From NCBI RefSeq assembly GCF_001625215.2, contig NC_030384.2, positions 42,132,390 through 42,196,389 of the forward strand: 64,000 bases of DNA, given 5' to 3'. The translations under genes were made by a program, and so were the position numbers. Positions 5,830 to 25,051 of this stretch are shown here, in pieces (positions within the stretch are counted from its first letter, which is position 1; every line of letters starts with the position of its first letter). The notes under the pieces are model-generated. The model worked only from the letters and a program-made list of their open reading frames with translations. It searched no databases and was not told where the DNA came from. Source of the stretch: Daucus carota subsp. sativus. Its lineage: Eukaryota > Streptophyta > Magnoliopsida > Apiales > Apiaceae.

Positions 5830-8800
5830 GAAAAAAGAACAGAGGAGAGCATTGAAGAAGTACAGCTTTGTTCCATGGTCGAGAAAAGGACACACACAAA
5901 CGTAAGGTAACTTCTGTAACCCTGACACCAAAATTTAGCTGATATAGATATAGAGAAACATTGTTAACACAGATATGTTTTTTATACATGGACAGAGGTT
6001 GTAGTAATACAAGTATTGATTCAAAGTTTCAGACAGAGTCAAGAGAATTAGTTCTCGGCTTGTCAACACCAAGACATTTGTTGGATTTAAAGCTCTGTCT
6101 TCTGGGCGCTGTTAAGTCTTAAGGTTTGTTTTCGAGGAAATTCACTGTCTTTTAAATCTTAATTTTTGTAAAGTTGTTGTGTTGGGGGATCTTTTTCATG
6201 TTTTTCTATTAATTGTGATTGAATTCTAATTTACCGATTCAAACCCTAGTTTTCAATTCTAGTATTCTGTTAATTTGCTGGTGTTATTTTTTTAGATTCG
6301 TTATTGCCTTTTAGACTTGTTTGCACTGTTGAATTAATTACCCTTGGCTGATAACACTTAGATTAATAAATCGCCATTCTTGGCCTGGGTTCGAATATTG
6401 ATTGCGTCGGGTTTATGATTTTGGTAGCTGTTTTGGTGTTTCTCGGTCTTAATAGATATGTTTGGGTTGATATTCATCATTTCCTTTTCTATTGTTTTCA
6501 GGGTTGACCGTCTTTTGGCGCAGTTTAGATTATACTTGTAGCGTGACGTTGAAACAATTGGTAATTTACTATTACAAACAGATTTCATGATAGTGGTTGC
6601 TGCGTGTCAATGTGTTTTTGTCGGTTTTTGTGTTCCTCTGAACTTTGCAACTAAATACTTTGCATGATTGGTTCATTTGTAGGACAATTATATCTATAAT
6701 CTTTTACATATATATGCTGGGGGCATAATTACATATAAACCTGTGAATTTTGTATATTCGTTGCTATTTTGGTTTCCCAATTTATCGTGTAGAGTATTTT
6801 GATCAAATCCCTTGTCTATCTTGTATTACAATCAGTTAGTTTGCCACCATGAATACAACGTTTCTACAGAGAGCTAGTTAGTGCTTAAGTAAATATCATC
6901 ATACATGTCTGCAAATTAATGTTTGGACCATCCTTTTGTTGTCTCATTCTACTGCTAATGTGACAGTGTTCTCTTGTTGCTAAAGCATGACTAACATTGA
7001 GCTAGATAGAATTGCACAGTTCACTATATAAATTGATTCATCACAGCTTACTGTGTTTTCTGCCTTTCAATTGTTCATGTACTTTGACTGAAAAAAATAT
7101 TCAAGTTGTATACTCTAGTTAAAATTTGAAACTAGCTCTTCCTGATATATGAAATTATAACTAACCACAAGCACTTGTGATTAATCAATCTACTAAGAAA
7201 ATCATGCCAAAAATGTGGTGTAAACTGTAAACATGGCTTTTCCTTGCGCCCTAGAAAAGGATTACTCACTCATGCTAGAAGTAAAAGAAACATAAACAAT
7301 CATGAAAGCCATATAGAGAGAATATGTAATACCTTAAACTTGTATTAGTGAAGAACTCAAGATCCAATGTGAAAGAGAAGACGATAAAACCTAGCTAATC
7401 CCCTCTAAACTAATAATAAAACTAAAAATTAATATTTTCTCGTATTCCTATAATAATAATATTTTTGATGTTTTAAAATCAATATACAAAATAGAACTCC
7501 AAAACAAAGTAGGGTTAGTCTTCAAAATTCGCAGCTTTCTTTTCTTTTCTTCTCCGTTTCTGGGCTTTTCCAGTTGGATTTTGCTTATTGAATCATCTCT
7601 GAATTAAAGAAAATTTCCTAAGATTCGTGCGGACTGTAAAATCGTCCAAATTTGACATCTGGAACTCAAGATATGGCCCAAACAATGCAGAAATCGAGTA
7701 GAGATTAACAAATCCGATTTTCCATAGAAGTTAGCCCCAAAATAGCTCTTTTTGCTCAAATCCTTCTTAACTTAGTACTTCTTTATTTTCCTATAATAAA
7801 ACATTGAAATCTATTGAGTAAATATCCAAATCAATGCAACATACAATTAAAGATGAGAATTAAATCATATAAAACATAGATAAAATATATTCTATTACTT
7901 CCCATGGTGTGTCCTGAAGATCCTTCCATGACTTATGTAAGGATTATTTATATAATTTGATAAATTGTGTAAATCCCAGAATAGCAGTGATAATAAATAT
8001 TCAAAGATACCTACTTTCATGTTTTTAAGCAAGAATGCTTAGTTCCCTTAAGTTTGAACCACATGATCACATATTGAAGATTATTCCTTCATGCTAACAC
8101 GTTAGCATATTTTGGCATGCCATTATTACCTAAACTGATCAAAATGTTAAAAGGTCTAGTAAGGTGAACAACCACGCAAGTCTATACGATATGATTAGTT
8201 CACGTTTACATATTAGACATTTATTGTGTGCTTAAGTTTCTTACAAGTGATATTAATTAAAGTGATATGATGTGGTCTAGCTCATTGTATGTTTTGGATA
8301 TCTTTCGCTTGTATGTGTCTTGGAAACCCAGTGTACACAATAAAGTCAAGAATACTGGTCTAAAACAAATTAAACTGTAATGTCATGATGCATTTCAAAT
8401 TTCTGTCTTCCAATTAGGTGGTAAACTTACCAGTATTGTAAAATAAATGTCTTTTCTAGATTACAGTACATGTTTCTTGGACCATTAGTATATCTGGCTT
8501 GATTCTTGCTTCCAGTGTTAGTCTTCAACCATTACAATAAATTTCTTTCTCTTCCTGATTATTCAATGATTCAGCCATCTGCTTTTCTTGCCTTGTCGAA
8601 GGAAGAAAAGCTGCTATTTTATGGAGAATATTGTATGCAGGATATATTTGACTTTAATGTCAAAGCAATGTGTTACGTGACTTCTGTATTTTACACTGCA
8701 CTTAACTTGGTTGTTGGTCATTTTCTTTGTCAAGACATATCTCAAGTGAAATCTTGAGTAGAAACATTGGCATCAAGTCATCAACAAATATAACATAACA

Positions 8801-9309
8801 TCACTATTAGCACTAATAGTAACAAGAGGTAGGTTTCAAGCCTTAATTGAGGCACACGCATGACGGCCGCGTGTATCTGAAATTTCTGTTATTGGCCTTA
8901 ACTAAAAAAGAAACAAGATATAATATAAAATTGGTATTGAATTATTTTCTTTATGCAGCTGTTTTGTACTTTACCTTAAATGTGTTTCTGTCCAATTTTG
9001 GATAGACCACAGATACAAGTCATTTACGTAACAGAATACAAAAGCGTGTTTTAATATGGAAATGGAACTCCATTGGAAGTGTGGATACGTGTCCACGTGT
9101 CAGACTTGACAATTTAATGAAAGTTTTGCATGTTTTTGTCCACAATGAAGTATCAATTCAACGTGTATTGATTGTGATATTTGCAGTTTAATGTGCAGAT
9201 CATTCAATCATCTGCTGTTTAGGTCTTTTAAATGAAAGAACTTAAGCTACAGCTGGACCCGGATTCCAATAAATACTGTAAATCCAAGTTGCTGTACTAA
9301 AGTCTAAAT
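5830..9309 (+). other. 5' leader exons and introns of TFIIS-N gene copy 1
   Basis: Inferred untranslated exons: about 5830-6123 (donor gtttgt), 6502-6560 (acceptor ttttcag, donor gtaatt), and from 9199 (acceptor gtgcag) to the start codon at 9310. The second exon and third acceptor align with the same parts of copy 2 (16725-16807 and 17414), which supports the model. The 2.6-kb second intron (6561-9198) is much larger than its 0.6-kb counterpart in copy 2; the extra 7150-8800 part is AT-rich and repeat-like and contains an ORF at 8506-8757 with no recognisable family. A stop codon at 9298-9300 closes the frame upstream of the ATG. Confidence 0.55.
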
Positions 9310-12300
9310 ATGACTCTCGAGGACTTCTTCACGTTAACTGAGATGAGAGAAGGGCTGACAGCTCCTGCTCGAGTAAAGGAGCTGATTAATGTTTTGCAGA
9401 AAGACAAACACAATACTGTGAAGAATGATGTTTATTCAAACAGACAGTGGTCTACTGTGGCAAGAACTATAGCAGCAACTGAGAACAAAGACTGTCTTGC
9501 TCTTTTTCTCCAGTTAGATGGACTCTGTTATTTTGATACTTGGCTTAAACATGGCCAGAAGTGTTTACAAGAAACAGGTGACGGCTTTATGGAAGAAGCA
9601 ATGATTGAACTGTTGGGAGCAATTGAAAAGCTGCATAAAGACGAGCAGAAGCCAGTTATTTCGGATATCATGCTGACAGTTAAAGATCTTCTTAGTAACA
9701 AAAGTTCCAGAGTTCAAGATAGGGCCAGATCCTTATATAGTATCTGGAAGCAAAATAGTGAGAGTAATGCGGTCTACATGGATGTTGATAAAGACAAGGC
9801 AGTAAGTGATAATCTTGTGGGTGTGAATGAAAACTGTAACCATGACCAGCCCGAATGTTCTTTACAAGATATTTCTACTTCCAGGGTTGATAATAACGAA
9901 GAGAAGAATTTAGAACCAGCTTCTAGTTATATGACTCCAACAGTCTCCCCTGAAATTATGCAAACTGAAGTAGTTGTAGACTTGGCTCTTCCGATATCCG
10001 ACAAAGATTTTGGCCATGCATCAATAAATGATGGACCCCCAAATACTGTCCAGTCTGATACATTAAATCTAGTCAGTGAAACCAGACCTGATTTAGGAAA
10101 CCGCTCAATGCATCAGTTAGAAGCAACCACAGGAATTAAAAGTCCTGGATCTGCTGTACCAGGACAAAGGACGCTTGAAGGGCAGTCAGATGTTGCCAGC
10201 TCAAATGAGCATGATGAAGCAAAACAGATGCCGCATATCAGGAGCTCTAACAACTTAGGTGTAACTGAGACTTCTTTTTGTGTTGACTCTACAAATTCTG
10301 TGGAGTCTAAAGTAGGTGATAACAATGAAAAGGATGTTGATGTCGGAAAAGAGGACCCTTGTATTAATAAAAGTCCCTCTGGTGATGTTAGAAAGGAGTT
10401 GTCTGAGGGTAATGGTGAAACGTTTGATAGCAGACCTTCAAATCCTTGCACTAATTTATCAGCATTTGACAGTACAGCTTCAGCTAATGTTTTGCAAGGT
10501 TCTCCTGCACATGAGATTATGGCAAAGAATGAGCAGCTGACTGCCATTTTATCAGAGGAAGTAGACACAGAGGCGAATAAAGAATCAAATGTTCAAAATT
10601 TTTCAGACAAAGATGAAGTTGATTTGGGAAATGAGGATCCAACTACAAATATTTCAAGTAAAGAAGACAGGGAGACGATTGATGGATCAAATGGTCAGAA
10701 TGTTCCTGAGAAAGCTGGGTTTGATTGTGAAAATGAGGTTATAACTACATATTTATTGAAGAAAGAGGAGACAGAGGCAATTGAAAAATCAAATGGTCAA
10801 AATGTTTCTGACGAAATTGGAGATCTAACTGTGAATTTATCAGGGAAAGAGGACTCGGAAGCGATTGAAGGATCAAGTGGTCAAAATGTTTCTGACGAAG
10901 ATGAGGTGGTTAGAAAAAATGATTATGATCTTTCCATGTCAGGAGCCGATGTTAAACATTCTGTTGCAAAGAAGTCTGATTTTGACATGTTTGATCCGTT
11001 AGAGGTTGCTCGACAAGTTGCCATGGAAGTGGAGAGAGAAGTGGACTGCAGAGAACCGAGTTTTAGTTCTTCTGAGAGAATGTCTGGTGATGGAAAAGTA
11101 GAAAGTTCAGATTATCTAAAGGAAAAAAACATCATAGGAATCCATTGCTCATTTAATGATGTGTCAACTGGACCAAATCATTATGCTGTTGGAGGCAAGG
11201 ATTTTGTACAAACCAAAAACATTCAGAGGAAAAATTGTACAGTTAATATTGAGCCCACGGAGTCTAGTGAGATGGCTCAGGAAAAAGAACATGAGGAAGA
11301 TAATAACGTCTGTGGTTTTGATCTGAACAAAGATGTGTTGTCTGATATTGATGCTGATAACCTAATTAACCCAGTCACTACTCCCAATATGGTTGTTTCT
11401 GCTTCAAGGGATGTGTCAACTTCTGGATTGCCCCTGTCTGCTTTGCAAATTGAGGGGACTGTTGAATGGAAAGGATATGCTGAAGCTAGTGCTTTTTGTC
11501 CACCTTCAACGTGCAAAATCTCCAAAGGTGAAAGTTCTACCTTTGCATCAGGGAGTAGTACCAACTTGTTTAGGCGGAAGGAATACCTTGACTTTGATCT
11601 AAATGTTGCTGAGGGCGAAGATAAATTAACAGACTTTCCACCCACTAGGGAGATCCCAAATTCAACTCGGCGGTCTTCAGAAAACTGTTCTTTTGAAGCT
11701 AGTCCAAAAAAATCTGACTTGCTGCAGCTGGATCTGAACTGTGTTAGTGATAATGGTGATGCTCCAGTATCATACTGGAGGAAGGAGGAGAGAGTTTTAC
11801 CACATTATAATGGTCAACTCAGTCCATCTGCTTCCTCTTCATCATCGTCAATGCAGCCTGCATTGAAAAAATTTGATTTAAATGATCAGCCATCTCCTTT
11901 TACTGAATTTTTGCATCCTGCTTTGACTGTTAGGTCATCAACGAATGTATATACTTCTGTTGCTGGAGGGTTTAAAACAGATGAATCTGTAATTTCCCTC
12001 ATGGGATCCAGAGTTGAGGTCAGACAAAAAGATAATGTTCCTCAGACAATTCCCCTATTTAATGGCAGCATTGGGGATCCTGCAGCGGATGCTAGTATGA
12101 CAAGAAACGACGGTGTTATGGGGTCGGCGTTATCCCTGCAATATGCGCATTCTTTCATGTATGGGTACAATGGCCCATTATCTGGACCTACTGTACCCTA
12201 TTCCTCAGCCATTTATGGACATGGAGGTCAAATCCCTTTTATGGTGGATTCAAGAGGAACCCCAGTTGCACCACGAGCTTTAAGTCCCGTGCCTGCTCTT

Positions 12301-12609
12301 CCTCCTTCCTTTCCGCAACCATTGTTTTTTGAGAGTTTGGCTGCTTCACCTGCTGACTCCAATGGGCTTGTGCCTACAAGGCATGGTCTCGATCTGAATC
12401 TAGGGGTAATGACTGAGGGGAGAAGCCGAGATGTTGGAAATATGCTGCAGCTGTTTAATCCTGGTCAAGGAATATCAAAGGATGAACAGATGAGGGCCTA
12501 CTCACAAGCGGCCTCTAGTTCTGGTGTCGGAGGAAAGCGCAAAGAACCAGATGGTGGATGGGACCCCTCTTCATTTAACTACAAACACCATCAGCCACCA
12601 TGGAAGTGA
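9310..12609 (+). CDS. TFIIS N-terminal domain protein with DLN/EAR motifs (copy 1, complete)
   Basis: Single coding exon, 1099 aa. Residues about 20-150 form a TFIIS N-terminal (LW) domain: helical, with WSTVARTIAA and the end NKSSRVQDRARSLYSIWKQ, a fold that docks on transcription elongation and Mediator partners. The middle is acidic, Ser-rich and disordered, with diverged repeats of a unit ending SNGQNVSD (about residues 420-540). Five DLN motifs follow: FDLN at 670, FDLN at 762, LDLN at 807, FDLN at 855 and LDLNL at 1027-1031; the last is a textbook LxLxL EAR repression motif. The C-terminus GGKRKEPDGGW...KHHQPPWK is a conserved family ending. Likely a nuclear transcription regulator related to the plant TFIIS-N proteins, without the BAH domain of the SUO group. 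Start chosen because an in-frame stop precedes it and copy 2 shares ATGACTCTCGAG. Confidence 0.88.
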   Translation: MTLEDFFTLTEMREGLTAPARVKELINVLQKDKHNTVKNDVYSNRQWSTVARTIAATENKDCLALFLQLDGLCYFDTWLKHGQKCLQETGDGFMEEAMIELLGAIEKLHKDEQKPVISDIMLTVKDLLSNKSSRVQDRARSLYSIWKQNSESNAVYMDVDKDKAVSDNLVGVNENCNHDQPECSLQDISTSRVDNNEEKNLEPASSYMTPTVSPEIMQTEVVVDLALPISDKDFGHASINDGPPNTVQSDTLNLVSETRPDLGNRSMHQLEATTGIKSPGSAVPGQRTLEGQSDVASSNEHDEAKQMPHIRSSNNLGVTETSFCVDSTNSVESKVGDNNEKDVDVGKEDPCINKSPSGDVRKELSEGNGETFDSRPSNPCTNLSAFDSTASANVLQGSPAHEIMAKNEQLTAILSEEVDTEANKESNVQNFSDKDEVDLGNEDPTTNISSKEDRETIDGSNGQNVPEKAGFDCENEVITTYLLKKEETEAIEKSNGQNVSDEIGDLTVNLSGKEDSEAIEGSSGQNVSDEDEVVRKNDYDLSMSGADVKHSVAKKSDFDMFDPLEVARQVAMEVEREVDCREPSFSSSERMSGDGKVESSDYLKEKNIIGIHCSFNDVSTGPNHYAVGGKDFVQTKNIQRKNCTVNIEPTESSEMAQEKEHEEDNNVCGFDLNKDVLSDIDADNLINPVTTPNMVVSASRDVSTSGLPLSALQIEGTVEWKGYAEASAFCPPSTCKISKGESSTFASGSSTNLFRRKEYLDFDLNVAEGEDKLTDFPPTREIPNSTRRSSENCSFEASPKKSDLLQLDLNCVSDNGDAPVSYWRKEERVLPHYNGQLSPSASSSSSSMQPALKKFDLNDQPSPFTEFLHPALTVRSSTNVYTSVAGGFKTDESVISLMGSRVEVRQKDNVPQTIPLFNGSIGDPAADASMTRNDGVMGSALSLQYAHSFMYGYNGPLSGPTVPYSSAIYGHGGQIPFMVDSRGTPVAPRALSPVPALPPSFPQPLFFESLAASPADSNGLVPTRHGLDLNLGVMTEGRSRDVGNMLQLFNPGQGISKDEQMRAYSQAASSSGVGGKRKEPDGGWDPSSFNYKHHQPPWK

Positions 12610-14559
12610 GGTTTTATTTCCTGTATGGAGTTGAGGAACTGATGAAGTATGTTGGTGCTTCTGGGATCAGTTCCACAGACTGAAGGTGAGCAAAATGAAT
12701 ATAGCAGGAAGGAAGAAACAGATAACTGAATAACGTGGAATTATAGATGTTATGTTGCTAAAGATACAAAGATTAGGGCTATAACTATAAACTGATTTTG
12801 TTTCTTGTTCTCCTTGTTGCAAGCAGGACATTACTACATTGTAGAAATGACCGAACTTGTAACAAACGATTTTTTTTATAATGGAGCCGAATTTTTAAAT
12901 TTGTACCGTAAACGACTCCAAGTAGTGTTGGAGCACATCTTGCTGCAAGCTCATCGAAAGACAAAATTGAATTTCAGCTGAGCTCTTTCAGGCATAAACG
13001 CATATGGCATATTCGCGGTTATGAGTATAGCTAAACCACTTTATTCTCCTAAACAGCTAGATTATAAAACAATTAATCAATTATGTTAACTTAGGGCTTT
13101 TTATCTCCTCGGTGTGTGCTGCCCAGTGCGTATCGCTCGGAGGTCTGGTCTGTGTGCTATGTTTTGTGAATCCTAGAATCCTAGCATCCACATTAACCAT
13201 AATTTAACACTTAAAAGGAGATCCGTGAAGTGTTAACATGAATTCAACATGTAATGAAGTATCTTACTCGCACAGAGCAGTATTACTCCCAAAAAAAAAA
13301 AAATTACAATCACATTGTTGTATTCTATACTCAGTATTCCTAGTAAAATAGTACGGCAAGATCTCTATAAATTTAGGTTATCACATATGTTGATTGTTTT
13401 AAAAATGATTTCTCAATAAACATATTAATATTTATTAATTGAAATTAAAAAAATGGATATTGTTTTTACAAGTTAAGTATTCTACATATTTATTTATCCC
13501 GGTTAAATACTATATATTTTTACCTTAATTTGTCAATCGGTAATCCGTTGAATGTCATTATATTAAAATTTACTCATATTTAGTAATTCAGATATTATTA
13601 ATTATTATATTAAAGAATAATTAATATTAATAAACTAAGTATTACTATTGATTTGTAAGTTTGAATTTCACTTCTCATCAATAACATTTTTATTAAAATT
13701 GATTAATTAAATATTAATATCGTTATTTAAAAATATAGATAGTTAAATGAAACTTAAATATTATTTTATAACCGTTTGAATATTTATAGAAGTTTGGGCC
13801 GCGAGGTAAAAATCCAATCATGACATGCTTTCTACAGTTTGGGCCTGCGAGGTCAGAAACCAATCATGACAGGCTTTTGATGGTTTGGACTTGCAGGATT
13901 AAAATCCAACCATGACTGGGGACAGACTTTTGATAATTAGGGCCTGTAGTTACAATGCAACAGGCCATATGATCGGGCCTTTGGATTTTGTTTATATTCG
14001 GTTCACATGCATGCCGTATGATCTTATAAAATCATTTTAATAATCATATCTGTTCAAAAAAATTAAATAATAATAATCATATAATTAATTTTTGCTCATG
14101 TGTTTTTATAGGATTTTAATTATAAGAAAAATTAATCAAAATATGGAAATGACTTCTAATTTAAATTGAAATTTTATTTGGAATATATTATCTTATTGTT
14201 GGTTTGATATTGTAATATTTTCTTAAAAATTATTTAAGATATGATACGTATGCATCGAATATACTGATAAATATTCTGGCACATCGTGCATAGTTCAAGT
14301 AAAAATCTTTTTTTCCATTCCAATACAGATCTTGTAGCTAAATTGTAAATATAAAATCTTTCCAAAACAATATCCGAGTGTACGCAGAGAATTAAAGTAA
14401 AATAAATTATGAAAAAAAAAGTAAAAAATAAATTAAAACGCGGGCTTGGAAAGAAAAACAAGAAAAGAAATATTCTCCTGTGGTTCGGAAAAGTACACAG
14501 GTAAACCGGAAACGTGAGCGGTCCCGTCTGTTAAAACTTAAACCGGAGAGACCAAAATT
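12610..14559. other. 3' UTR of copy 1 and intergenic region
   Basis: About 12610-12900 is probable 3' UTR; the rest is AT-rich intergenic DNA (notably 13380-13790) without supported genes. A short GC-richer repeat lies at 13791-13990 and is listed separately. Confidence 0.55.
13791..13937. repeat. Degenerate tandem repeat, about 47-bp unit
   Basis: Three to four copies beginning 'agtttgggcc' at 13791 and 13836, then a diverged copy at 13883, each containing 'ccaatcatgaca'; a further degraded copy may continue to 13990. Upstream of the copy 2 promoter. Directly visible. Confidence 0.7.
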
Positions 14560-17413
14560 TTAGTATATATAGAGATATATACATTGTACTATTGCAGTAG
14601 TTGATATATACGAGGAAGGAGTGAAATTAGCGGAGAGTAAGAATCCGACAGAGTCGAGAAAATTGAGAATTCACTAAAAGGGGCTAGCTTTAGGCTTGTC
14701 TACAACGAGACAGCTTAAAGCTCCTTCTTTTTTCTTCTCGACGGTGATCTTCTGCTAAGGTTTACTCTCAGGTAATTCCGTGTCTTTTAATCTCAATGCT
14801 TCTGTGTTTTGTTAATTGTAATAGAATTACCATGTGTTAAAACCTTTCGAGTTATTGTCTTGCTGGATCTTTTTCATGTTATTTGATTATCGTATCTGAC
14901 TCATTTCTTAACCTTTTGTGATAAACCCTTGTTTCGAGTTCTTGTTTGTTTTTTCGATTTGAATTTTGGGGTTATTGTTTTTCGATATGTTATTGCCGTT
15001 TTACATGCTTTGTGTAGTTGAATTATGTTGGATGATTGATCAACTGATATCCTTTTTTGTGGTTTTTTCCCGTATATCAACTGTGTATGTTTTATGATAG
15101 TGGTAGCTGTTTAGTAATTCCCTGTCTTTGCATTTTAATGCTTCTGTGTTTTGTTCATTGTGATAGAATTACCATGTATTAAAACCTTTTGAGTTATTGT
15201 CTCGCTGGATCTTTTTCGTGTTATTTAATTATCGTATCTGACTAAATTTTAACCTTTTGTGTTAAACCCTTGTTTCGAATTCTTGTGTTTTTTTCGTTTT
15301 GAATATTAGGGTTATTGTTTTTCGATATGTTGTTGCTGTTTTACCTGCTCCGTGTTGTTGAATTATGTTGGATGATAGGCCCTTGGATGAATGATCAATT
15401 GATATCCTTGTTTTGGCTTTTTTTCGTATATCAACCCTGTCTGTTTAAAGATTGTCGTAGCTGCTTAGGGTATTTTTTGATGATTGTGGTAGCTGTTTAG
15501 TAATTCCCTGTCTTTTGATTTTAATGCTTCTGCGTTTTGTTAATTGTAGTAGAATTACCATGTATGAAAACCTTCTGAGTTATTGTCTCACTGGATCTTT
15601 TTCGTGTTATTTTATTATGTTATCTGACTTAGTTCTTAAACTTTTATGTCCCTTGTTTCAAATCCTTGAATATTTATTTGAATTTTAGGGTTATTGTTTT
15701 TCGATATGTTGTTGCTGTTTCACCTGCTATGTGTTGTTGAATTATGTTGGATGATTGATCAATGGATATCCTTTTTTTTTGGCCATTTTTCGTATATCGA
15801 CTGTGTCTCTTTAATGATTGTCGTAGCTGTTTAGGGTTTTTTGATGGTTGTGATAGCAATTTAGTAATACCCTGTCTTTTGATTTTAATGCTTCTGTGTT
15901 TTGTTAATTGTAATAGAATTACCATGTATGAAAACCTTTTGAGTTATTGTCTCGCTGGATCTTTTCGTGGTATTTAATTATCGCATCTGACTCAGTTCTT
16001 AACCTTTTATGTTAAACCCTTGTTTCAAATTCTTGTGTCTTTTCGATTTGAATTTCAGGGTTATTGTTTTTCGATATGCTATTGCTGTTTTACCTGCTCT
16101 GTGTTGTTGAATTATGTTGGATGATAGGCCTTTGGATGATTGATCAATTGATACCTTTTTCTTTTTTTTTTTTGCCTTTTTTTGTATATTGACGGTGTCT
16201 GTTTGATAATTGTCGAAGCTGTTTAGGGTTTTTTTTATGATTGCGGCAGCTGTTTAGTAATTCCCTGTCTTTTAATTTCAATGCTTCTGTGTTTTGTTGA
16301 TTGTAATAGACTTACCATGTATTAAAACCTTTTGAGTTATTGTCTCGCTGGATCTTTTTCATGTTATTTAATTATCGTATCTGACTCGGTTCTTAACCTT
16401 TTATGTTAAACCCTCGTTTCAAATTCTCGTGTCTTCGATTTGAATTTTAGGTTTATTTTATTCGATATGTTACTGCCTTTTTACCTGTTTTGTGTTGTTG
16501 AATTATGTTGGATGATAGGGCCATGGATGATTGATCAATTGCTATCCATTTTTCTGGCTTTTTTTCCGTATACCGACTGTGTCTGTTTTATGATTGTGGT
16601 GTCTGTTTTCTGATTGTTGTAGCTGTTTAGGGTCTCTTATGATTGCGGTAGCTGTTTAGGGTTTCTCAGTTATAAGAGCTGTGCTTGTGCTGATACTTAT
16701 AATTTCCTTTTCTGTTGTTTTCAGGGCTGACCCTTCTTTGTTTGACGCTGTCCGTCTCGAAGAACTGCAATTAAGATTATACTTGTAGCGGGAAATTGAA
16801 CTAATTGGTAATTACTATTCTGAATAATATTGATGTCAGTGTTTGATGCATGTCACTGTGTTTTTGTCGGTTTTCGTTTTGTTTGTTTTTCCGTCTCTGA
16901 AGTTTGTAGCTAAATCCTTTGCATGATTGTTTCTGAGCAAGGATGATTTATGCACATTCAACTTATATAAATTTTATACATTTTACTTTCAAAAAAAAAA
17001 TAAAAATTTATACATTTATATACTGCTACCTAATATTAATATATATGAATCAGTAAGTTTTGCTGGTTCTTTGCAATTATGTTCTTAGAAAAGATTCCTT
17101 GCAATATAATCGATTTCATAGATACCTAGTATCATTTAAGAAGAGGCTGAGGGTTCAAGCCTCACCAGACAGTGTTGATATATAAAATTTCTGTAATTGG
17201 CCTAAACAAAAGAGGAAAAGTTATAAGAATATAAGATAAAATCATTGTTAATAATATTTGAATACAGTTGTATGCATATTACCTTCAATACCCTAACCCT
17301 ATTTGAAGCCTAGTGTTAGAGTTGACAATTTAATGGAAAGTTTTGCATGTTTTTCAACTCCTACAACAATATTGTAGACTAATTTATTGTGACCTCTGAT
17401 GCTTAATGTGCAG
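14560..17413 (+). other. 5' leader and introns of TFIIS-N gene copy 2
   Basis: A TATA-like stretch sits at 14563-14583. Inferred untranslated exon 1 ends at 14771 (ctctcag, donor gtaatt at 14772) and exon 2 is 16725-16807 (acceptor ttttcag, donor gtaatt). The next acceptor gtgcag ends at 17413, seven bases before the ATG. The sequence of exon 2 and its flanks is clearly homologous to 6490-6570 of copy 1. Intron 1 is filled by the tandem array annotated separately. Confidence 0.6.
14772..16660 (+). repeat. Five tandem copies of a 340-400 bp unit in the leader intron
   Basis: Units start at 14772, 15114, 15500, 15864 and 16257, each opening with GTAAT(T/A)CC and sharing landmarks such as 'aatgcttctg', 'gagttattgt', 'gctggatctttt', 'aattatgttggatgat' and 'agctgttta'. 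Copy 1 has a single equivalent segment (6124-6480). The first GTAATTCC is the presumed splice donor, so every unit start repeats a donor-like sequence. Confidence 0.9.
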
Positions 17414-17420
17414 ATCAAAT

Positions 17421-20210
17421 ATGACTCTCGAGGCAGTATGTGATGATGTTGATGTCAATGGATATCCTGGTAGTAAGCATGAACAGCCAGAATGTTCTTC
17501 ACAAGATATTTCTAATTCCAGATGTATTAACAGTGAAGAGAAAACTTTAGAACCAGCTATGGATGAAATAACACCAGCTATCCTTCCTGAAGCTGTGCGA
17601 ACTGAAGTAGGTGGAGACTCAACTATCCAACCCTACGACGAAAATTCAGACCATGCATCCCCAGATCCTGTCCACTCTTGTAAGATGAAGCTTCACAGCG
17701 AAAACAATTCTGTTTTGGGAAACCCCTCAAAACAACAATTGGAAGCAATTTCTGGAATCCGAAGTCCTGGATCTGTAGTTACAGGCCCAAGGACGTTTGA
17801 AGGGCAGTTTGATGTTGCAAACTCAAATGAGCATGACAAAGAAAAGCCGATGGTGCAGATCAGAAGCTATAGCATATCTCCAATTCCTTGCAGCAAAATA
17901 CCAGCATCTGACAGTGCAGCCCCAGTTGATACTTTGCAAGGTTCTTCTGTGAATGAGCTCAATATGGGGAAGAGTGAGGGTGTAACTTCAAGTTTATCAG
18001 GGAAAGAGGACTCAGAGATGATTAAAGAATCAAATGGTCAAAATGTTTCCAATGAAGTTGAAGTTGTTTGCAGAAATGAAGTTGAACTTGTTTCCAGTGA
18101 AGTGTGTGATAGCATATCTCCAAATCCTTGTAGCAAACTATCAGCATCTGACAGTGCAGCTCCAGCTGATGCTTTGCAAGGTTCTTTTGCAAATGAGCTT
18201 GATCTGGGGAAGAGTGAGGGTGTAACTTCAAATATATCTGGGAAAGAAGACACAAAGGTGACTGAAGAGTCAAATGCCCAAAATGTTTCCAGTGAAGTTG
18301 AACTTGTTTGCAGAAATGTGGATTTAACTGCAAATTTATCAAGGAAAGAGGGCACAGAGGTGACTGAACTATCAGATGGTCAAAATGTTATGGACAAAGA
18401 TGAGGTTACTACAGGAAGTGAGGATATAACTACAGATTTACTAAGGAAAGAGGATGTCAAGGTGATTGAAAAGCAGACCGGTCAAAAAAATTCTGGCAAA
18501 GATGAGGTTGTTAGGGGAAATGATCCTGGATTTTCCATGTCAGGAGCCGATTTGAATCATTCTGTCCAAAAGACGTCTGATTTCAAAATTGATTATGACA
18601 TATTTGACCCACTAGAGGTAGCTCGGAAAGTCGCCACAGAATTGGAGAGAGAAGTGGACTGTAGAGAACCAAGTCGTAGTTCTTCTGAGAGAGCGTCAGG
18701 TGGTAGAATCCGACTTCCAGAAAGCCCAGATCCTATAAAGGGAAAAAACAGCATAGTAGCCCATCACCCATGTAAGGACATGTCAACTGGAACAAATCTT
18801 ACTGCTGCTGTAGGAGAAAAGGTTCTTGTTAAAGCCACAGCCCTACCAATTGAAAGGGAGACTTGCATAGTGGACAGTGAGGTGGCCCAAAATATAGAAC
18901 CTGACGAAGATAAACTCGTCTGTGGTTTTGATCTGAATGAAAATGTGTCTGATGATAATATGGATAACCAAACCAATTCAGTCACTGCTCCCATCTCGCT
19001 TGTTACCGCTTCAATGGCCGCAACCACTTCTGATTTGCCTTTGTCTCCTTTGCAGTTTGATGTCACTCATGGATTCAAAGGATCTGCTAAAACTAGTGCT
19101 TTTTGTCTGGCTCCGATGCACAAAGTCTCTGAAGGTGAGAGCTCTATCTTTGCTACAGGGAGTAGTAGCAGCTTGTTTCGGAAGTCGGAACACCTTGACT
19201 TTGATTTAAATGTTGCTGAGAGTGAATATTGGAAAATTTCAGACTTGCCACCGAGCAAGGAGACCCCAAATTCAGCTGCCCGTCCTTCTGGAGACGCTTC
19301 CTTAGAATCTTTTCCAAAAAGATCCAACTTGTTACAGCTGGATCTGAATTGTGCTAGTGATAGTGGTGATGCTCCATCATCATACTGGAGGAAGGATGAA
19401 CGAGTTTTACCACATTTCACTGGTCAATTTAGTCGATCTGCTTCCTCTTCATCGTCATTAATGCAGCCTTCATTGAAAACCATTGATTTGAATGATCAAC
19501 CATCTTATACTGAATTTTTGCATCCCGCTTTGACTGCCAAGTCATCTACTTCTGTTTCTGGAGGGTATAATACAAATACATCTGTAATTTCCCTCATGGG
19601 TACTCGAATTGCGGTCAACCAAAAAGACGATGTTCCTCAGACATTTCCCTTTTTTAACGACAGGATTGTGGACCCAGCACTGGATGCTAGTATGCCAAGA
19701 AGTGACAATGTTTTGGGGTCTGCATCTTCCTCGCTATATGCACGTTCTTACATGTATGGGAACAATGGCCCACCATATGGATATGGACCTACTGTACCAG
19801 AGTCCTCATCCATTTATGGACTTGGTGGTCAAACCCCTTACATGGTGGATTCAAGAGGATCACCTGTTGGTCCACAAGTTTTAGGTCGTTTCCCAGCTCT
19901 TCCTTCCTTCACGCAACAACCATCTTTTTCTGAAGGCCTGGCTGCTGCACCTGCTGACTCTATTGGCTTTGTGCATTCGAGGCATGGTTTTGATCGGACT
20001 TCCAGTTTAATGTTTGAGGGGAGAAGCAGGGATGCTGGATATACAAGGCAGCTGTTGAACCCTGGTCAGGATATACCAATGGATGGAGAAATGAGGGGCA
20101 ATCCACAATCCACTTCTAGTTCTGGTGTTGGAGGAAAGCGCAAAGAAATGGATGGTGGCTGGGAACCCTACCCATATAGCCATAAACATCACCACCCAAT
20201 GTGGAAATAA
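17421..20210 (+). CDS. TFIIS-N paralogue lacking the TFIIS domain (copy 2)
   Basis: Single coding exon, 929 aa from the ATG at 17421. An ATG 15 bases earlier (17406) lies upstream of the gtgcag acceptor ending at 17413, so it should be intronic. The protein begins MTLE like copy 1, then jumps to the equivalent of copy 1 residue 154 (AV...DVD...HEQPECSSQDIS), so the whole TFIIS N-domain is missing, yet the frame is kept. The rest aligns along its length with copy 1. An 80-residue segment is tandemly duplicated (17871-18110 and 18111-18350; SISPxPCSK...). Four DLN motifs remain (FDLNEN, FDLNVAE, LDLNCA, IDLNDQ), but the C-terminal LDLNL is replaced by FDRTSSL. The conserved end GGKRKEMDGGW...HHPMWK is present. 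Long intact frame argues for function or very recent loss; its role without the domain is unknown. Confidence 0.85.
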   Translation: MTLEAVCDDVDVNGYPGSKHEQPECSSQDISNSRCINSEEKTLEPAMDEITPAILPEAVRTEVGGDSTIQPYDENSDHASPDPVHSCKMKLHSENNSVLGNPSKQQLEAISGIRSPGSVVTGPRTFEGQFDVANSNEHDKEKPMVQIRSYSISPIPCSKIPASDSAAPVDTLQGSSVNELNMGKSEGVTSSLSGKEDSEMIKESNGQNVSNEVEVVCRNEVELVSSEVCDSISPNPCSKLSASDSAAPADALQGSFANELDLGKSEGVTSNISGKEDTKVTEESNAQNVSSEVELVCRNVDLTANLSRKEGTEVTELSDGQNVMDKDEVTTGSEDITTDLLRKEDVKVIEKQTGQKNSGKDEVVRGNDPGFSMSGADLNHSVQKTSDFKIDYDIFDPLEVARKVATELEREVDCREPSRSSSERASGGRIRLPESPDPIKGKNSIVAHHPCKDMSTGTNLTAAVGEKVLVKATALPIERETCIVDSEVAQNIEPDEDKLVCGFDLNENVSDDNMDNQTNSVTAPISLVTASMAATTSDLPLSPLQFDVTHGFKGSAKTSAFCLAPMHKVSEGESSIFATGSSSSLFRKSEHLDFDLNVAESEYWKISDLPPSKETPNSAARPSGDASLESFPKRSNLLQLDLNCASDSGDAPSSYWRKDERVLPHFTGQFSRSASSSSSLMQPSLKTIDLNDQPSYTEFLHPALTAKSSTSVSGGYNTNTSVISLMGTRIAVNQKDDVPQTFPFFNDRIVDPALDASMPRSDNVLGSASSSLYARSYMYGNNGPPYGYGPTVPESSSIYGLGGQTPYMVDSRGSPVGPQVLGRFPALPSFTQQPSFSEGLAAAPADSIGFVHSRHGFDRTSSLMFEGRSRDAGYTRQLLNPGQDIPMDGEMRGNPQSTSSSGVGGKRKEMDGGWEPYPYSHKHHHPMWK
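17871..18350 (+). repeat. 240-bp in-frame tandem duplication inside copy 2
   Basis: 'agcatatctc' begins at 17871 and again exactly 240 bp later at 18111; both units encode the same 80-residue pattern (PCSK, ASDSAAP, ALQGS/TLQGS, GKSEGVTS, SGKED, QNVS). Copy 1 has only one diverged equivalent (around 10437-10620), so the duplication followed the gene duplication. Confidence 0.9.
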
Positions 20211-23815: not shown

Positions 23816-25051
23816 CTACTCTAACCCAGGAATATAATCAGGGGAGCTTGACGATCCACCAGCACCACCCGATAAACTCTTCTTCTTCTTCCCCTCTTCG
23901 TAATCAGGATCACTGGTGGGTAACTCAAACCTGCACACCGGACAAGTATTTCTCGAAGCTAACCAAGGCACTATACAATCTCCATGGTAACCATGTCCAC
24001 AAGGCAATTCCTTAGCAGTCTCTCCCACATTCACCATATCTTTGCATACAGCACAGAGCAAGGCTTCTTTCTCGGACTTGATCTCGACAACTTTAAGCAA
24101 TGCCACTGCTGATTCAGCCGCAGGTGGCGCTCCTCTTCTTCCACCACTATCAGTATCAGCTAAATTACGCAACACGGCTTCGTATCCAGCTGCATCGACA
24201 TAGTCCCCTGGATTACCGACATAACCAGGACCTCCATGTAATCGAAATTCAATCGAATTATCCTCGAATCCCATTAAAATATCCGCCCAATCAAGAATCC
24301 TCTCACGGCGACTAGTCCCTCGTGTGGCGAAATCTCGGAGACGCTGGCGAAGGCGATCACGCCGTGCCCTACGCAACTCCTCATCGCTTTCGACACGATC
24401 GGGATCCTCATCATCATCAAACCGTTCTTCACGATTCTGATCAACCACTTCATCTTCATCATCATCTTCATTATCCTCATCGTTGTCATCATCTTCGTTA
24501 TCCTCCTCCTCATCTTCTTCTTCCCACCCGTCCAGCTCAATCCGGAGATAGTCATCATCCACGCGCTCCGGAGGGGGAGACGGAGGCGCGTCATCCACAC
24601 GCGCCACCTGCGCGAGTAAGTTCAGAACCTGAATGAACTGGTTACCTAGAGACGGATCCAGTGGCGGATCTGACTATGAAATTAAGGGGGGTCAATTTTT
24701 TTGTAAAAAAAATTAAAAGGGGTCACAAAAAAATTAAGGGGGGTCAATTTTAATTTTACAGCCTAAAAATATGTATAATATTAACAAACAAAAAAATTAA
24801 GGGGGGTCAGTTGCCCCCTCTTGCCCCTTCTAAGATCCGCCTCTGGACGGATCGGACGGCGGATCGGCAGCGATGGACTCAACGAACCCGCACTTACAAT
24901 CAACACACACTATTTGAGGAGGATCGACGAGTGCTTCAACGTTGACTCGCTTATCGCACTGATAACACCAGTACTCAACGTTCTGGTCTGACTCAGTGGA
25001 GGGAGCGAGTTGAGGCGGCGATGGTGGTGGGTGAGATGGTGACTCGGCCAT
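23816..25051 (-). pseudogene. RING-H2 E3 ubiquitin ligase gene interrupted by a hAT MITE
   Basis: Two frame-compatible halves. The 5' half (25051 down to 24846) starts MAESPSH and has a zinc ribbon (YWCYQCDKRVNV...VCVDCKCGFVESI). The 3' half (24650 down to 23816) continues with the family segment LGNQFIQVLNLLAQ, a long acidic D/E stretch, and a RING-H2 finger (CAVC...CGHGYHGDC...CPVC) before the end PDYIPGLE. This order (zinc ribbon, acidic linker, RING-H2) is that of plant CIP8/RDUF-type E3 ligases, usually intronless. Between the halves sits a 187-bp MITE plus an 8-bp duplication: 195 bp, a multiple of three, but it brings a TAG stop six codons after the junction. Without it the protein would be 346 aa. 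Both halves are otherwise clean, so the insertion looks recent. A shortened product, or splicing across the element, cannot be excluded. Confidence 0.85.
24659..24845. mobile_element. hAT-type MITE in coding sequence, 8-bp target duplication
   Basis: 13-bp terminal inverted repeats CAGTGGCGGATCT / CAGAGGCGGATCT (one mismatch) bounded by perfect 8-bp duplications GACGGATC at 24651-24658 and 24846-24853. Inside are three copies of 'attaaggggggtca'. The 8-bp duplication and CAG...CTG ends place it with hAT elements. No ORF; mobilised in trans. Confidence 0.93.

Follow-up and report, generated by a model that had tools for sequence, protein, structure and literature searches.

The described systems closest to the locus studied here are the plant proteins in which a TFIIS N-terminal (TND/Med26) domain is followed by a long tail. 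The locus lies in a stretch of 64,000 nucleotides of the Daucus carota subsp. sativus genome (contig NC_030384.2; G000:C4:42132390-42196389), hereafter the window, whose own positions are used as coordinates unless a contig is named, and it holds two tandem paralogues, copy 1 (c1) and copy 2 (c2); a third paralogue (c3), of 1009 aa, is found on contig C5. Both c1 and c3 resemble the long-tail proteins in having an N-terminal TND-like domain and then a long tail, whereas c2 is without the domain. The Arabidopsis gene At4g24200 is a putative counterpart of c1 and c3. In PMC4585125, that gene appears among those annotated as TFIIS or similar. From its sequence, c2 seems to be a tail-only paralogue in which the reading frame was preserved and the constraint on the amino acid sequence was relaxed, a reading to which we assign a probability of about one half.

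MicroProteins are small and retain an interaction domain of their parent; c2 differs from them in being long (929 aa) and in having kept the tail but lost the one parental domain that could be recognised. Truncated plant paralogues, for example the truncated leucine-rich repeat receptor-like kinases (LRR-RLKs), are closer: after losing one domain, a duplicate may go on performing the parental function, alter it or compete with it (PMC7318236). EAR-motif repressors and adaptors, which recruit TOPLESS or SAP18, are defined by the motif patterns LxLxL and DLNxxP (PMC6283911); c2 resembles them in carrying DLNxxP and LxLxL, by sequence patterns only, and differs from them in that no DNA-binding domain is recognised in it by Pfam.

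The junction in copy 2 and the missing domain

The c2 coding sequence reads ATG ACT CTC GAG and then picks up at c1 codon 164 (c1 9799 = c2 17433), with 159 codons gone. When the alignment was anchored at c2 17433, the score was 103 for codon 164, 94 for codon 163, 88 for codon 165 and 58 for codon 154, and the local BLAST match between the two copies begins at 9797/17431. The true 3′ edge in c1 is GCAGTA at 9799 (codon 164), the second of two such sites, the first being GCGGTC at 9769 (codon 154), and a breakpoint at codon 154 was rejected on its score. The preliminary description had proposed an exact in-frame loss, and in fact c2 carries ATGACTCTCGAG, the domain segment is gone and the frame is kept and open to 20210, but the edge does not fall at codon 154, and the proposed size of 447 bp (codons 5–153, 149 codons) is corrected to 477 bp (codons 5–163, 159 codons).

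The c2 start codon stands in an island of about 17 bp flanked by two gaps, the 477-bp gap downstream and, directly upstream, a 104-bp gap in the leader that the preliminary description had not mentioned. A 22-codon upstream open reading frame (uORF) of c1 (9232–9300, uORF scan) lies inside the 104-bp stretch gone from c2; the c1 mRNA would include it only on condition that c1 is spliced at an acceptor equivalent to that of c2. Fifteen bases in place at the start codon are common to c1 and c2 (ATATGACTCTCGAGG), for which the chance is 4^-15 per site, with far less than one occurrence expected in the region; a shuffle control of the junction gave 0 of 2000, although this control is weak, as the 16-base string used mismatches c1 at its last base. 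AGG can be read in the sequence at both edges of the missing c1 segment, which is consistent with a microhomology-mediated deletion. A c1-type duplicate would have lost codons 5–163 and the 104 bp of leader either in two short deletions or in a single one whose repair inserted a copied filler of about 17 bp. The evidence favours loss in c2 over gain in c1, because the full-length third paralogue c3, as well as c1, carries the segment; domain loss in c2 seems to be the simplest reading, with three copies alone giving no root to the tree.

We read the lost segment as a divergent TFIIS N-terminal (TND/Med26) domain, the support for which is indirect in c1, via two further genes of the same contig, L003 (C4:41444953-41448375) and L004 (C4:41503048-41506470). 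These are near-identical TFIIS-N genes, about 58 kb apart and 0.6–0.7 Mb from the window, with domain segments that are 99% identical, and they are presumably SUO-like. The Pfam family Med26 (PF08711) matched c1 at E 0.0098 and c3 at E 0.00065, both below the Pfam cut-off, and L003, the gene of the SUO-like pair covered by the scan, at E 4.9e-15. A profile-profile comparison of c1/c3 with L003/L004 by hhalign gave E 4.8e-15, with 34% identity over 137 columns. The profile including L003/L004 matched 30 PDB sequences at E<=1 (best E for TCEA1 0.0013, MED26 0.0014, PNUTS 0.0023, elongin A 0.019 and IWS1 0.15), its top two matches being a designed repeat protein and presumably spurious. IWS1, in which a folded HEAT/TND core (residues 554–692 modelled) is flanked by motif-bearing disordered regions (PMC13175633), differs in being an animal/yeast core elongation factor, and its weak match to this profile concerns the domain only. 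A profile built from c1 and c3 only matched five PDB sequences, none of them a TND. Residues 1–153 of c1 are 71% identical to c3, and omega between c1 and c3 in the domain is 0.38 over 160 columns, close to the 0.40 of their tails. The c2 protein had neither a Pfam nor a PDB match at E<=1.

Six-frame searches of the window's own genome (441 Mb, 11 contigs; cut-off E<=0.001, which leaves distant TND proteins out of reach) found the domain in four places, namely c1, c3, L003 and L004, and the tail in five matches (12 candidates scored), which belong to the three genes c1, c2 and c3; no other tail paralogue was found in this genome at that cut-off. The preliminary description had considered that an upstream exon might bring a TFIIS-N domain to c2, and none of the four domain matches lies near c2. 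Supply of the TND by an exon spliced on from upstream, or by read-through out of c1, is hardly credible to us: leader introns are predicted upstream of c2, but none of the six frames gave a domain match near c2 or in the stretch separating the copies, and in c1 (1099 aa) the domain stands in the same coding exon as the tail and the stop, all within one open reading frame (ORF). It is likewise highly improbable, if somewhat less so, that the 477-bp gap is an assembly error caused by collapse of similar c1 and c2 domain segments, since identity between the two copies at aligned codon sites is only about 75%, and the separate leader gap and the exactly kept frame also argue against a collapse.

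Preservation of the frame and of EAR-type motifs

Starting at 17421, c2 is open for 929 codons, with no premature stop and no frameshift, and the tail alignment of c1 and c2 holds all 2574 aligned nucleotides in one frame, with 17 of 17 gaps being multiples of three. In neutral simulations (2000 runs per d, started from the c2 tail; similar results with the c1 tail as the starting point), the mean number of stops was 13.7 at d 0.174 and 16.8 at d 0.226, versus none observed in c2, and the probability of no stop was 0.146 at d 0.02, 0.0125 at d 0.05 and 0.0005 at d 0.10. An in-frame internal duplication of an 80-codon unit is also present in c2, and c1 10427–10634 aligns to both of its units; these differ at 29 of 210 nucleotides and contain no stop, with an omega of 0.62 that is not different from 1 (twice the log-likelihood difference, 2dlnL, 1.15). 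Judged in this way, c2 is not an obvious pseudogene.

EAR-type patterns, LxLxL as well as DLNxxP, are present in the c2 tail, and these patterns are short and common. The LQLDL motif is common to c1 and c2; c1 alone has a second LxLxL in its tail (residue 1027), and c3 is without LxLxL. Of the five DLN sites in each copy, four align across c1, c2 and c3, and the fifth site of c2 (residue 377) is its own.

Constraint on the tail and possible roles of copy 2

Selection was estimated over the 817 columns common to c1, c2 and c3, with a star-tree codon model and one omega per branch. Over these columns, amino acid identity is 57.3% for c1–c2, 57.4% for c1–c3 and 56.5% for c2–c3, and the pairwise synonymous divergence (dS) is 0.49, 0.685 and 0.63, respectively. 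Branch omega was 0.49 for c1, 0.73 (0.726) for c2 and 0.35 for c3, and the dS of the c2 branch was 0.226. In 40 bootstraps, the 5–95% range of the c2 omega was 0.58–1.00, with c2 above c1 in 97.5% of the replicates and reaching 1 in 2.5%. A shared omega for c1 and c2 costs a 2dlnL of 2.44, so that the likelihood test leaves these two branches unseparated, whereas forcing a single omega on all three raises the cost to 11.8. We also counted the sites at which the other two copies agree and the third has kept the residue: inside conserved blocks, these were 153/195 in c1, 162/219 (74%) in c2 and 190/253 in c3, and outside blocks 186/268, 177/252 (70%) and 149/243 (32 of the latter being gaps), the excess of conservation in blocks being the least in c2 of the three copies. 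The c2 tail thus seems to be weakly constrained, even in the blocks kept by c1 and c3, and, taken together with the intact frame, this suggests that the frame of c2 was guarded over most of its branch while the constraint on its amino acids was weak.

Several observations weigh against a frame-preserved, functional tail. None of the data sets put the omega of c2 clearly below 1: 2dlnL was 3.45 with the 817 columns (16.6 for c1), 1.55 when gap-adjacent columns were dropped (omega 0.77, 589 columns left), 0.83 in the first half of the tail (omega 0.78), 2.51 in the second half (omega 0.70) and 3.1 outside the c1/c3 blocks (omega 0.68). In the blocks conserved by the other two copies, omega was 0.815 for c2 (2dlnL 0.48), against 0.40 for c1 (9.41) and 0.38 for c3 (19.81). 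Guarding of the frame may belong mostly to the time before the deletion, when c2 was still full-length, and after a brief neutral decay (d 0.02) 14.6% of the simulated sequences are still free of stops. Furthermore, the C-terminal DLN common to c1 (residue 1028) and c3 (residue 939) was lost in c2, in which corepressor binding is suggested by short motifs only.

These observations bring in the possibility that c2 was recently truncated and is heading to a pseudogene, the deletion having broken its main function and the stops being yet to come, which we consider possible though rather unlikely. An omega that is the highest of the three branches, an agreed-site retention and a block omega that hardly distinguish c1/c3 blocks from the rest of the tail, and a rate within the internal repeat that does not differ from 1 are all in line with such a decay. 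On the other hand, neutral evolution as short as d 0.05 leaves no stop in only 1.25% of the simulations, when c2 has none and all its gaps are in frame; the duplicated 80-codon units diverged without acquiring a stop; the start codon, the acceptor AG and the ATG-free predicted leader are all intact; and the omega of c2 is not separated from that of c1 by the likelihood test.

Returning to c2 as a frame-preserved and relaxed tail-only paralogue, the retention of the start codon, the frame and the acceptor AG means that the first AUG would yield a 929-aa tail-only protein, provided that c2 is transcribed and that its splicing follows the prediction. Such a protein, if made, may keep the share of the family's job that is independent of the domain. 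Its EAR-type DLN motifs might bind TOPLESS-type corepressors or other shared partners, and it would be without the TND by which the full-length protein would dock on transcription-elongation factors. A relaxed or diverging side function is more likely for c2 than a role as a finely tuned inhibitor, because its tail is rather free to drift.

An inhibitory role, raised as a possibility in the preliminary description, was nevertheless weighed, in which c2 is a natural competitor that titrates corepressors or other tail partners from c1 and c3, or binds them uncoupled from elongation complexes. The tail is in frame, with DLNDQP, LQLDL and the four DLN sites of all copies retained, and interference of truncated plant paralogues with full-length proteins is a recognised possibility (PMC7318236). 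We regard this role as unlikely, since the weak constraint on the tail, overall and in conserved blocks, is unlike what would be expected of a faithful competitor, and both the second LxLxL of the c1 tail and the C-terminal DLN of c1 and c3 are gone from c2. It is more doubtful still that c2 would be an evolved, expressed, lineage-specific TND-free decoy, drawing the partners of the EAR motifs away from the full-length paralogues next to it and uncoupling corepressor binding from docking on the elongation complex, helped by the loss of the uORF, which would raise its translation.

The preliminary description knew of no described gene with this architecture. A description of the c1/c2 pair was indeed not found in the literature searched, which was searched partly on other questions and covered few subscription papers; truncated paralogues, however, are a class already known (PMC7318236). 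The truncation of c2 is real but an ordinary kind of gene change, and c2 is a further case of that class. What the locus offers is a clean natural deletion that parts a folded TND from an EAR-motif tail in a plant family that has received little study. Should the short c2 protein be made, the c1/c2 pair is a ready test of the tail acting alone; otherwise, the pair illustrates the ordinary decay of a duplicate gene whose frame is still intact.

Predicted leader and neighbouring loci

The c2 exons are predicted at about 14580–14771, at 16725–16807 and from 17414 onward, with GT/AG borders; as both predicted leader exons are without ATG, the c2 transcript would have its first AUG at 17421 (Table 1). 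Upstream of the coding sequences, BLAST aligned c1 6413–6674 with c2 16637–16933 (71.6%), c2 16685–16933 with c3 (68.8%) and c1 6461–6682 with c3 (68.0%). By its sequence, c2 is a DNA-level tandem duplicate of c1, predicted leader introns included. The status of a processed retrocopy was rejected for c2, in view of the exon- and intron-like upstream homology with c1 and c3 (intron borders predicted).

Table 1. Features of the c1/c2 locus, in window coordinates.
Feature	Position	Strand	Basis
c1, full-length paralogue, coding sequence; TFIIS-N-like domain and DLN-motif tail	9310..12609	+	ORF; Med26 match below Pfam cut-off; alignment
c2, domainless tandem paralogue, coding sequence; 929 aa and stop	17421..20210	+	ORF; c1/c3 tail alignment
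c1 codons 5–163 (477 bp), missing in c2; holds the whole TFIIS-N-like domain	9322..9798	+	Three-copy alignment; anchored scores
c1 5′ leader segment (104 bp), also missing in c2	9202..9305	+	Alignment; counted as leader on the assumption that c1 and c2 use equivalent acceptors
c2 junction: predicted acceptor AG (17412–17413), ATCAAAT leader, ATGACTCTCGAG, first base of the codon-164 equivalent	17414..17433	+	Sequence; alignment
c2 in-frame internal duplication, 240-bp (80-codon) unit, 1.9 copies	17869..18318	+	Tandem repeat finder; BLAST
EAR-type motif LQLDL of c2, from residue 638, part of LQLDLN	19332..19349	+	Motif scan
c2 DLNDQP EAR-type (DLNxxP) motif, residue 689 on, in all three copies	19485..19502	+	Motif scan
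First predicted leader exon of c2, ATG-free, with an approximate start and its donor GT at 14772	14580..14771	+	Read from sequence
Second predicted leader exon of c2, ATG-free, with homology to the c1/c3 upstream regions	16725..16807	+	BLAST

Predicted leader intron 1 of c2 contains about 3.8 divergent tandem copies of a 364–393 bp unit (15090–16555), parts of which resemble c1 6172–6336 and the region upstream of c3. Between c1 and c2, a 46-bp unit is repeated in about 2.8 copies (13791–13916).

The best non-self match (of 150 scored) of the adjacent RING gene (23816–24274) lies on contig C5, 3.3 kb past the end of the c3 match and in the same convergent orientation, which suggests that the c1/c2 and c3 regions form a homoeologous block, with one neighbour only pointing to it. 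The dS of the RING pair, 1.94 over 108 codons (2.20 over 150 codons, with the start poorly aligned), disagrees with the c1–c3 dS of 0.685. For the neighbouring thaumatin-like gene, the best other match is on contig C1, and its C5 match lies about 1.9 Mb from c3. Dating of the c1/c3 split by synteny was given up, as the two dS values conflict and the thaumatin-like gene gives no support. Matches of the RING gene on contig C9 form two series with identical scores, at 35.90–36.00 Mb and 36.79–36.89 Mb, about 0.894 Mb apart, and this arrangement suggests either a large recent segmental duplication or a duplication in the assembly.

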